From: Providencia vermicola
GTDB taxonomy: Bacteria > Pseudomonadota > Gammaproteobacteria > Enterobacterales > Enterobacteriaceae
Length of the DNA stretch: 64,000 bases
Direction: 5' to 3'
Assembly (NCBI RefSeq): GCF_020381325.1
Contig: NZ_JAGSPI010000002.1
Location: 1-64,000 of the forward strand
Below, piece after piece: positions 36,226 to 56,612 of this stretch. The notes below the pieces were generated by a model that made no database searches, was not told the origin of the DNA, and saw only the letters and a list, made by a program, of their open reading frames with translations. The position numbers and the translations under genes are program-made. Position 1 is the stretch's first letter, and the number at the start of each line of letters is the position of its first letter.

Positions 36226-36492
36226 TTAATACCTCTGTATTTAAGTAATTGGGGTTATGCCTCCACGAATCCCATACTACCGACTCTATAGCTGCGTCTA
36301 AACGCATAAGAGCACCCCGGCGCACGTGTCGATTCGTGTGTGTTATACACAATTGAGTTTAAGTTTCGCAAATCCAATTCCCTTTTCAGGAAACCTCATT
36401 TTGCTGCCATAAATTGACATTTCAATGAAGACGAGAAGAAATAATATGGATTGCCGGCGCGCTTTATACCATAAAACCAACTTAGAAGCCAA
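36226..36492 (-). promoter_or_regulatory. rpsB-tsf promoter and leader (probable S2-responsive 5' UTR)
   Basis: Minus strand: -35 TTGGCT (36487-36492), 18-bp spacer, -10 TATAAA (36463-36468), then a GCGCGCC discriminator typical of stringently controlled promoters. This gives a 5' UTR of about 230 nt. In E. coli the rpsB leader is the target of S2 autoregulation and overlaps the element called t44; that this leader works likewise is inference. A second TATAAT (36585-36590) further upstream might be another promoter. Small open frames in this leader are not conserved genes. Confidence 0.65.
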
Positions 36493-44001: not shown

Positions 44002-44889
44002 ATGGGATTACTAAAGCAGTGGCGCAAGGAAAATAAGGCATGGAAGGCCTTCAGTGGTAAATATGTTGAACTCAAAAGAAAAATTCGCATAGCGAAGCTC
44101 CCTTCTGTGCAATATCAGCAGTACCAAGGCATGTGTCAGACATATCAAAGTGCTCAGCTCGCTTCTGAAATTGACGGAGTACCCCATTTTATTGAGCGCC
44201 CAATTAATAAATATCTACATAAAGCTTGGAGTGGAAAGCAAAAATTGCTGACAGCAAGCTATACACTAGATTTAATTGAAAAAACCTTTACCCCTGAAGC
44301 CGTAGAAAAAATGTTTTCGGCAAAACGTGAAGGGTTAACTGTTGCAAATATTGAGCTGAAATCTGGTGATTTTGCACAGCTCACCTTGATTTATTCTCAA
44401 TACCCAAGAGAAGGCGATCTTACCTTACACCTGCGCAATGAAACGGGTGATGATATCTATTTAATGAGTTTTTCTTTTGGGCCTGAAGGGCAACTCTATG
44501 TTTGCTCACTGCAAGGCCCATCAACCGACCAAAGTGTTGAGCAAGTTCGTCTAATCACCAAACAAATGCATGGAATGAGGCCTAAAAACCTATTAATGTC
44601 TGCAGTTTATGCTGTCGCGGCCTATTTCAAAGTGACATCAATCCAAGGCATTTCAAACAATAGCCATATTAAGAGCCAACACTTAAAATCGAGCTATGAT
44701 ACTTTTTGGCAAGAATGTAGTGCAACATTAGCTTCTGATGGTTGGTACCAGCTTCCATTACAAGAGCCAGTTCGTGATATAGAATCCGTGAAAAGCCAAC
44801 GTCGTGCTGAATTTCGTCGACGTGAAGCACTTCGTGATGCGATGAGCCAAGAAATTATTGCATCACTCAGTGCGAACTCAGTGAAGTAA
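44002..44889 (+). CDS. VirK/YbjX family protein (DUF535)
   Basis: 295 residues. The DUF535 signature is clear: SFSFGPEGQLYVCSLQGP followed by a LITKQMHGMRPKNLL stretch around 165-205. Family members VirK and YbjX are linked in Shigella and Salmonella to virulence, antimicrobial-peptide resistance and the PhoPQ regulon; no biochemical activity is established. No signal peptide or membrane segment is obvious. The C terminus is rich in Arg/Glu (about 265-285). In E. coli no such gene lies between yqcC and csrB; here it is convergent with csrB. I found no convincing PhoP box upstream. Confidence 0.85.
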   Translation: MGLLKQWRKENKAWKAFSGKYVELKRKIRIAKLPSVQYQQYQGMCQTYQSAQLASEIDGVPHFIERPINKYLHKAWSGKQKLLTASYTLDLIEKTFTPEAVEKMFSAKREGLTVANIELKSGDFAQLTLIYSQYPREGDLTLHLRNETGDDIYLMSFSFGPEGQLYVCSLQGPSTDQSVEQVRLITKQMHGMRPKNLLMSAVYAVAAYFKVTSIQGISNNSHIKSQHLKSSYDTFWQECSATLASDGWYQLPLQEPVRDIESVKSQRRAEFRRREALRDAMSQEIIASLSANSVK

Positions 44890-44916
44890 CAATCCGTTGA
44901 TTACAAGCTAGAATAA

Positions 44917-45135
44917 CAAAAAAAGCCAGCCGGCCTAAATCAGGCCGACTGGCTTAACATTACATTTTAGATTTTAATGCATCCTGCAAAACGACATCCT
45001 GTCGTTCAACATCCTGTTGAATAAAACAATTTAATAGGTTGTTCCTGCCTATTAAGCAGTCCATCGCTTTGTTTTTTCATTTTTTATACATTACGATGTA
45101 TAAAAAGCTAAACGAACTTACCCTGTCCAGCGGCA
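44917..45135 (-). ncRNA. csrB: CsrB-type CsrA-sequestering small RNA
   Basis: Minus-strand transcript between syd and the virK-like gene, the E. coli csrB position next to syd. It has six GGA motifs. Three are in consecutive stem-loops with a GGA loop: stems TTCAACA (45005-45021), AACGACA (44990-45006) and TGCA (44978-44988), the first two reading ACAGGATGT, which matches the high-affinity CsrA site. A fourth lies in the loop of an 8-bp stem (45031-45055), a fifth in an AAGC/GCTT stem (45054-45069), a sixth near the 5' end (45126-45128). An 11-bp stem without GGA is at 45081-45106. It ends in a terminator with seven U. The 5' end is estimated from a weak -10 (TACATT, 45140-45145). About 220 nt, against 369 in E. 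coli. Confidence 0.85.
44918..44955 (-). terminator. csrB terminator
   Basis: AAGCCAG-CGGCCT pairs with AGGCCG-CTGGCTT (one A/C mismatch, loop AAATC); the T-run is on the minus strand only (44918-44924), so it ends csrB rather than the convergent virK-like gene. Confidence 0.9.
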
Positions 45136-45298
45136 TAAGAATGTATTAAATCTATTAATGAAACAACCTAGCTGAGCAAACAAAAATTAATTTTAAAAAG
45201 CGGTGTTCCCATTATTGGTAGTAACGTCATGAAATTAAAAGTTAATTAATTATCATTTTAATAAAATCAAATAACTTTGAGAAATTACTTAACCCAAT

Positions 45299-45316
45299 TG
45301 TAAGTTTTGACTTACA
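45299..45316. promoter_or_regulatory. UvrY/GacA-type upstream activating box of csrB
   Basis: Perfect palindrome TGTAAG-TTTTGA-CTTACA, the TGTAAG-N6-CTTACA consensus of GacA/UvrY sites found upstream of csrB/rsm RNAs. It lies ~170 bp upstream of the estimated csrB start and 19 bp beyond the syd stop codon. Sequence seen directly; binding by UvrY is inferred from known systems. Confidence 0.85.
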
Positions 45317-45334
45317 ACATTCATCCTAAAATAC

Positions 45335-45895
45335 TTACTCCTGAGGCTCAACAATAGGGAGTAACTCTTCAATAAAACTCGCTAAATTTGGTGAAAGTAC
45401 GCGCCGCTCTTGGCTACCAAATTTTTCTAAGATCACCTCCCCTGTTAAATTACACAGCGAGATTATTTCAATTTCAGAGTCTATTGTGGCAATAAACAAA
45501 GTTGGCGATAACTTTAAACGCTTTTGAGTGACTAAATGCCCAATTAAATTTTCTTGTAAGCGAATAAAATCCTCTTCATTCCATACTTGTACCAAACTTA
45601 AGGTAATATCACGAAATGTGGCTTTCATGTCCCCAGCCAGCTGAGTGGTATAAAAATGATGAATATCGTCTTGTAAACTGATATCCAATGCCGTAGCGAC
45701 TTTATTTAAATGTGCGTCCTTAATGGGAAATGCTTGCGGCTCCCAATAAACCCAGTTCTCGCCAGTTCTCACGACACAAGGAGAAGGAATACCATATAAA
45801 TCAACAGATGCAGGTGGTAACCCCGTTTGTTGTTCCCACGCTGAAATATAATTTTGAGTAAAACGCTGTAACGCTTGAGAGAGTATTGTATTCAT
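45335..45895 (-). CDS. syd: SecY-interacting protein Syd
   Basis: Peripheral cytoplasmic protein that binds SecY and monitors translocon assembly. 186 residues (E. coli 181). Conserved PPASVDLYGIPSPCV and NWVYWEPQAFP; C terminus variable. Divergent from queF and upstream of csrB on the same strand. Confidence 0.94.
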   Translation of the reverse strand: MNTILSQALQRFTQNYISAWEQQTGLPPASVDLYGIPSPCVVRTGENWVYWEPQAFPIKDAHLNKVATALDISLQDDIHHFYTTQLAGDMKATFRDITLSLVQVWNEEDFIRLQENLIGHLVTQKRLKLSPTLFIATIDSEIEIISLCNLTGEVILEKFGSQERRVLSPNLASFIEELLPIVEPQE

Positions 45896-51751: not shown

Positions 51752-51954
51752 ACTTCCTAAGCCGGAACGAAAAGTTACAGAGTTTAGTTACTTTGAAACT
51801 TTTGGCTTTGTGGTTGTGATGTTGTGTTTGCAAGTTGTCTGGTTGAACCAGACTTTGTAGCTTTTGCTACTGTTTTTTTCACTTCCTGTACATTTACCCT
51901 GTCTGTCCATAGTGATTTTTTATAGTGCACCGCCAAAACGCGGTGCTTTTTTTT
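51752..51954 (+). ncRNA. gcvB: GcvB small RNA
   Basis: Hfq-dependent small RNA that represses amino-acid and peptide transporter mRNAs. About 203 nt, starting ACTTCC and divergent from gcvA. The G/U-rich R1 seed region (GTGGTTGTGATGTTGTG, about 51806-51825), the conserved ACTTCCTGTACATTTACCC R2 region (from 51882) and the terminator GCACCGC/GCGGTGC plus eight T (51927-51954) are all present and close to E. coli. Confidence 0.96.
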
Positions 51955-56306: not shown

Positions 56307-56383
<77 letters not shown>

Positions 56384-56439
56384 ATACTGAGTTAATCAGT
56401 AAAGTAGTAAAAAAATCAAAACGTTGTAAAGAATTCAGT

Positions 56440-56516
<77 letters not shown>

Positions 56517-56535
56517 ATTTTTTTACTTCTTCAGT

Positions 56536-56612
<77 letters not shown>

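Follow-up and report, generated by a model that had tools for sequence, protein, structure and literature searches.

A compact CsrB-type RNA gene predicted downstream of syd in Providencia

The closest described counterpart of the element considered here is CsrB of Escherichia coli (Rfam family RF00018), whose gene sits between yqcC and syd and whose transcript carries about 20 GGA motifs. RNAs of a similar kind in Pseudomonas (RsmX, RsmY and RsmZ) have a GacA-type box and are encoded at other genomic places. According to the accessible parts of the respective papers, E. coli CsrB is ~360 nt long (PMC7911923) and its gene is preceded by the repeat TGTGAGAGATCTCTTACA (consensus TGTAAGNNNNNNCTTACA), centred at −183/−182 (PMC4682653). 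The accessible text of PMC7911923 also describes RsmX, RsmY and RsmZ as short RNAs with 6–10 GGA, which titrate a CsrA-type protein, and that of PMC4683029 mentions in passing, for Photorhabdus asymbiotica, a putative csrB that measures 210 nt and is highly expressed in RNA-seq. We analyzed a 64,000-nt stretch of the Providencia vermicola genome (contig NZ_JAGSPI010000002.1 of assembly GCF_020381325.1, positions 1 to 64,000; hereafter the window), in which the gap between syd and a DUF535 (VirK-like) gene is highly likely to encode a csrB ortholog that is shorter and has fewer CsrA sites in Providencia, and whose RNA would sequester CsrA.

This interpretation is based on position, conservation, partial covariation, a decreasing number of sites along the lineage, the presence of one csrA gene and the failure of the tests used to reveal a second RNA. 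That the gene is transcribed and activated by UvrY, and that its RNA binds CsrA, is inferred, as is the stoichiometry. The predicted gene shares with E. coli csrB the place downstream of syd on the same strand, a far-upstream UvrY repeat, GGA hairpins and an intrinsic terminator (Table 1). It differs in that the RNA of the window is about 214 nt long with 6 GGA, falls below the Rfam cut-off and lacks, by the tests used, a csrC partner. In addition, the DUF535 gene separates the Providencia csrB from yqcC, whereas in E. coli (L200) yqcC directly follows csrB. By eye, yqcC also directly follows csrB in the Proteus sequences.

Inspection of the gap (44890–45334) confirmed that its 445 nt are devoid of coding sequence (no open reading frame, ORF, of at least 40 amino acids), as the first-pass annotation of this DNA had stated. 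GGA occurs nine times on its minus strand and is absent from the plus strand; six of the nine lie in the predicted RNA. The annotated terminator was likewise found on the minus strand only, as the single terminator-like site of the gap (shuffles mean 0.3), and the annotated UvrY/GacA box, located just after the syd stop codon, proved to be perfect. The perfect sequence TGTAAG-N6-CTTACA occurs once in the window (none in 100 shuffles), and this is its single occurrence in the whole 4.24-Mb genome. The RNA start is an estimate, obtained by matching GCTGGACAGGG of the window by eye to the GTCGACAGG-like sequence at which long csrB genes begin; an alternative start up to 45142 is possible.

Table 1. 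Coordinates of features at the syd-csrB locus and of uvrY (window positions, unless a locus is named; R1, model built in this analysis from the genus sequences)
Feature	Position	Strand	Remarks
Compact CsrB RNA (predicted)	44918..45131	-	About 214 nt; R1 model 186.6 bits (own sequence among those that built R1)
UvrY/GacA inverted repeat TGTAAG-N6-CTTACA	45299..45316		Perfect; centre ~176 nt upstream of estimated RNA start
Promoter-like region TAGGTTGTTTCATTAAT ... TTAATACATTCTTATG (predicted)	45134..45170	-	Conserved; alignment of 23/24 loci; ATTCTTA in 24/24
5′ stem-loop with GGA1 (45126-45128)	45107..45131	-	GGA inside stem with G-U pairs; GGA in 18/24; three pairs with both-side changes
GGA2	45060..45062	-	24/24; loop of weak helix in consensus fold, some pairing when the window RNA is folded alone
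GGA3, loop of extra hairpin	45043..45045	-	3/24: P. vermicola (window species) and two nearest relatives only
Hairpin AACA-GGA-TGTT (GGA4)	45006..45020	-	GGA 24/24; three pairs with both-side changes
Hairpin CGACA-GGA-TGTCG (GGA5)	44992..45004	-	GGA 23/24 in register; one pair with both-side change
Hairpin TGCA-GGA-TGCA (GGA6)	44978..44988	-	GGA 23/24 in register; zero pairs with both-side change
Intrinsic terminator with T run (predicted)	44918..44955	-	15 pairs, 44955-44923
syd	45335..45895	-	Pfam Syd 222.5 bits; upstream neighbour, same strand as RNA
DUF535 (VirK-like) gene	44002..44889	+	Pfam; other flank of gap
uvrY, own genome	L186:1495-2178		Contig C2, before uvrC
uvrY, two relatives	L192:8252-8935 (G007); across L193/L194 (G006)		Orthologs with the same receiver losses

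We located syd in 46 of 60 relatives, among them all 24 Providencia genomes that form our genus set. Eleven of these 24 loci match database records without a difference over their central 500 bases, every one of these records being Providencia, and the genus of the whole set is assigned accordingly. The region was extracted by means of a motif in 23 loci, and L016, the remaining one, was positioned manually. Alignment of the sequences downstream of syd revealed the RNA in every one of the 24 genomes, with the box, the promoter-like motif, the GGA hairpins and the terminator all retained; together with the positional match, this supports the earlier proposal that the csrB position is occupied by a compact RNA of the CsrB type. 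Four GGA are constant (alignment columns 94, 145, 160 and 177; 24/24, 24/24, 23/24 and 23/24, respectively), the last two being one column out of register in the remaining sequence, and the 23 extracted loci carry 4–7 GGA per RNA. The six sites of the first-pass annotation are thus the number of the window, and the core of the genus comprises four. In two Providencia genomes (L015 of G012 and L024 of G010) the syd frame is broken, possibly through assembly errors.

The box, in the form TGTARG-N6-CNTACA, was present in all 24 loci at 171–175 nt before ATTCTTA (this motif was used to define the start, and none of the loci had to be excluded for missing it). Since the RNA follows syd directly and shares its strand, it might be regarded as a 3′ regulatory region of that gene instead of a separate RNA. 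However, the region has a conserved promoter-like motif of its own, the UvrY box follows the syd stop codon, and the spacing between box and motif is nearly constant, which makes such an arrangement most improbable.

The stem-loops proposed around three of the GGA correspond to three conserved triloop hairpins (GGA4, GGA5 and GGA6). Three GGA triloops with stems of at least 3 pairs are rare in shuffled sequences (mean 0.19, P 0.0004), and scanning of both strands of the window for three such triloops within 60 nt revealed only one other site (20073–20021, minus strand), inside what we take to be a dnaE-like ORF. Three CAGGA with gaps of 4–30 gave two overlapping matches in the genome, both at the csrB locus (backward control, 1). 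Compared with 200 dinucleotide-shuffled versions, the RNA has the better predicted fold (z −5.87). A pairing of ATTCTTA with the GGA6 region, suggested by RNAalifold, was set aside, ATTCTTA being more likely part of a promoter than of the RNA.

When the named structure was scored over 22 distinct sequences, 91.0% of the cells were paired (86.9% in shuffles), 30 cells were changed on both sides (9.3 ± 3.6 in shuffles) and the covariation score was 0.230 (0.152 ± 0.011 in shuffles; slid controls at most 0.099); in each case, none of the 500 shuffles was as high. Because the terminator is shifted in the alignment, its pairs were not counted. The changed pairs are distributed over the 5′ stem and hairpins 4 and 5 (Table 1).

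Scanning the gap with all 4227 Rfam families at gathering score (cmscan) yielded no match. When 44700–45600 was scanned up to E 10, the below-threshold matches were to other small RNAs (sRNAs) and rested mostly on the terminator. These could point to a base-pairing sRNA unrelated to CsrA, whose GGA loops serve another role; against this stand the lack of any match at gathering score, the nature of the constant elements (the box and the GGA loops) and the positional orthology with csrB, so that we consider it hardly plausible. Neither scan gave a match to families of the RsmX/RsmY/RsmZ type, from which the Providencia RNA also differs in that each such system comprises several RNAs.

The RF00018 model identifies CsrB at the same syd place in E. 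coli (380.4 bits) and in 8 of the 20 other syd loci scanned, all eight from other genera, which confirms the statement that the position beside syd is that of E. coli csrB. The 12 loci without a match are those of Providencia (3), Moellerella (1), Morganella (2), Proteus (2), Xenorhabdus (2) and Photorhabdus (2). In the own genome RF00018 had no match at E 0.001, with the E. coli control passing. The R1 model, in contrast to RF00018, recognises the locus in all 24 genus genomes (E 6e-26 or better), the same sequences having been used to build it. Among 392 genomes of the family, scanned under stricter filters by which weak relatives may be lost, R1 gave 43 matches at E 0.01, five from the genus, that of Moellerella and 37 from others. 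Moellerella wisconsensis (G174, named by the same 500-base comparison as the genus set; E 3.6e-16) provided the sole strong match outside Providencia, the 37 others having E 4.6e-4 or weaker.

Comparison of the syd-csrB place across genera revealed how the compact form may have arisen. We retained the best 80 of at least 520 syd relatives and measured 74; of the six left out, one was too short and the other five had no recognised terminator. The start was set 175 nt after the box (200 nt after syd if there was no box) and the end at the best terminator-like hairpin. In seven other genera (18 loci) the RNA measures 314–527 nt with 19–29 GGA. The values are 199–280 nt with 9–13 GGA in Xenorhabdus (21 loci), 232–242 nt with 10–12 GGA in Photorhabdus (8 of 10 loci measured), 203–209 nt with 6–9 GGA in Proteus (10 loci), 206 nt with 5 GGA in Moellerella (one locus) and 193–219 nt with 4–6 GGA in Providencia (11 loci, among the 24). 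The simplest reading of these 74 loci would be a stepwise loss of CsrA sites in the Providencia lineage.

In Morganella (5 loci) we obtained 70–88 nt with 3–4 GGA; these numbers are rough because there is no recognisable box and the start was set by distance. The csrB of this genus may be nearly lost or rebuilt. The Morganella loci inspected (L080, L081, L082, L085; L119, L120, L128, L161, L166) have few GGA and a strong hairpin but lack a recognisable UvrY box; in the sequences examined, the GGA occur as ACACGGATGT or a variant of it, plus GACAGGATGTT.

Such a series might also be expected if the Providencia RNA were a csrB relic in decay, without meaningful control of CsrA, its sites being residues of the ancestral long RNA: the number of sites falls step by step along the lineage, and the Morganella region is even smaller and lacks a recognisable box. 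However, four GGA, the box and the promoter motif have remained constant in 24 genomes despite drifting linkers, and the stems contain both-side changes, which renders decay very unlikely, if slightly less so than the other two alternatives. A functional, compact csrB is the interpretation that we retain.

Several observations weigh against it. The GGA count by itself is only modestly above chance (6, whereas 5000 dinucleotide-shuffled versions of the 214-nt RNA had 3.03 on average; P 0.032). When the full-length RNA of the window is folded to minimum energy, only hairpin 4 forms among the three GGA triloop hairpins; folding of a sub-fragment yields two. Two further measures were reached by some of the 500 shuffles, namely the count of pairs with both-side changes (7 vs 3.9) by 6 of them and that of further pair types (22 vs 19.1) by 11. 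Among the GGA hairpins, covariation is seen in 4 and 5 only, hairpin 6 having no pair changed on both sides, and just 8 of the 22 distinct sequences form a standard pair at the loop-adjacent A-U of hairpin 5. The shuffles ignore relatedness, and the covariation therefore supports the structure without proving it. RF00018 exceeded its gathering cut-off (71 bits) in none of the 24 genus genomes, with a best match of 16.3 bits at another place; this bears out the earlier claim that a model of long CsrB may miss the RNA. Finally, the lost phospho-acceptor of UvrY, described below, raises doubt over how csrB is switched on. Taken together, csrB orthology by place and design, as well as an action like that of CsrB, are well supported, while the model does not place the RNA in RF00018.

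The compact csrB RNA very probably soaks up CsrA as E. coli CsrB does. UvrY would bind the far-upstream box and activate transcription of the ~210-nt RNA, which would end at the intrinsic terminator. The three GGA triloop hairpins, with one or more further GGA, would then bind CsrA dimers, probably two or three per RNA, and this uptake of CsrA would release its mRNA targets. In P. vermicola and two relatives, UvrY would act in a form independent of phosphate.

The genome contains one csrA gene (61 amino acids), adjacent to what is presumably an alaS-like ORF, and 56 of 59 aligned residues of its product are identical to the solved chain 1y00, which we take to be E. coli CsrA. The best UvrY is encoded directly before uvrC, as in E. 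coli, and scores 177 bits (cut-off 280; E. coli UvrY 451). D54, T82 and K104 (E. coli numbering) are the conserved phosphorylation residues of receivers. In the three genus genomes compared, out of 24 (the own species and two relatives), these are replaced by S, N and V (own genome), N, N and I (G007) and N, N and V (G006). An Asp is present two positions past site 54 and is conceivable as an alternative, but the Thr and Lys are also gone. Identity to E. coli UvrY is 30 or 31/120 in the receiver and 41/63 in the DNA-binding domain. Nonsynonymous divergence of the receiver among the three genomes is far below the synonymous one (dN 0.033–0.054, dS 0.47–0.72), which indicates purifying selection, and uvrY is therefore not decaying. 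No uvrY was found in the four stretches of G005 searched.

As UvrY of these three genomes is devoid of residues normally needed for phosphorylation, activation is probably outside the standard phospho-switch, and transcription of the compact csrB may not depend on the usual phosphorelay. For the E. coli protein, the accessible text of PMC4682653 reports an in vitro effect of only ~2-fold, with a preparation already about 7% phosphorylated.

Among the 27 matches of the genome search that scored UvrY, the sole frame near the 920 amino acids of BarA is one of 951, presumably RcsC-like from its position facing an RcsB-like gene. This result is weak, because the E. coli BarA receiver scores about as high (22.4 bits) as that of an ArcB-like ORF (24.0). 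Within 400 kb of contig C3 and the window, BarA matches were confined to this ArcB-like ORF and there was none to RlmD. We tentatively consider, as a possibility somewhat short of an even chance, that the Csr switch has been rewired in this Providencia clade, with a minimal CsrB of four core sites as the only Csr RNA and a UvrY receiver that cannot be phosphorylated, so that the amount of UvrY, or another ligand, would set CsrA titration in place of the BarA phosphorelay.

A second RNA (csrC), expected by the first-pass annotation, was not found, and has no support in four tests (model, box, GGA cluster and position), none of them exhaustive. R1 gave no second good match in the own genome (the next match scored 31.6 bits), and CsrC (RF00084) had no match in the window or the yihI locus, the whole genome not having been scanned with this family. 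There is no second perfect UvrY box in the 4.24-Mb genome, and degenerate boxes are at background (9 places vs 8 in the backward control). Two of these were inspected, and neither has a GGA cluster. Of the two, one is inside a presumed SbcC-like ORF and one upstream of what we take to be an acid-phosphatase-like gene. No further CAGGA cluster was detected in the genome, no csrC was present at the yihI place (cmscan of this locus gave no match), and Rfam scans of the csrA, uvrY and box loci yielded tRNAs only. Before yihI (L104:961–1207) we noted two close 121-nt direct repeats, 97% identical; similar repeats were seen by eye after csrB in L010.

Among the papers listed on csrB, CsrA and UvrY in Providencia and related genera, with subscription journals sparsely covered, no account of the compact RNA or of the altered UvrY was seen. 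A genome survey of CsrA-regulating RNAs from 2006 may cover some of these genera. The accessible parts of PMC4683029, PMC4682653, PMC7911923, PMC11004495, PMC9861413 and PMC8144298 describe neither the compact Providencia csrB nor the altered UvrY. The csrB-like transcript of P. asymbiotica occupies the csrB place and is similarly compact, at 210 nt; csrB in compact form is therefore not entirely without precedent, the Photorhabdus loci differing in their higher number of GGA.

The syd-csrB place thus offers a natural dose series, from 19–29 GGA down to 4–6, with CsrA nearly unchanged (in the one genome examined), and the number of sites needed by a CsrA sponge becomes directly testable. R1 can serve as an annotation model for Providencia and Moellerella, where the Rfam CsrB model fails; Proteus, Xenorhabdus, Photorhabdus and Morganella need equivalent models. 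UvrY would represent a response regulator that has seemingly kept its target site while losing the phospho-switch.

Other Rfam matches in the window comprise GcvB (51752–51954), t44 (36254–36360), which precedes an rpsB-like ORF, three tRNA genes in a row (56307–56609) and a partial 16S rRNA (1–472).
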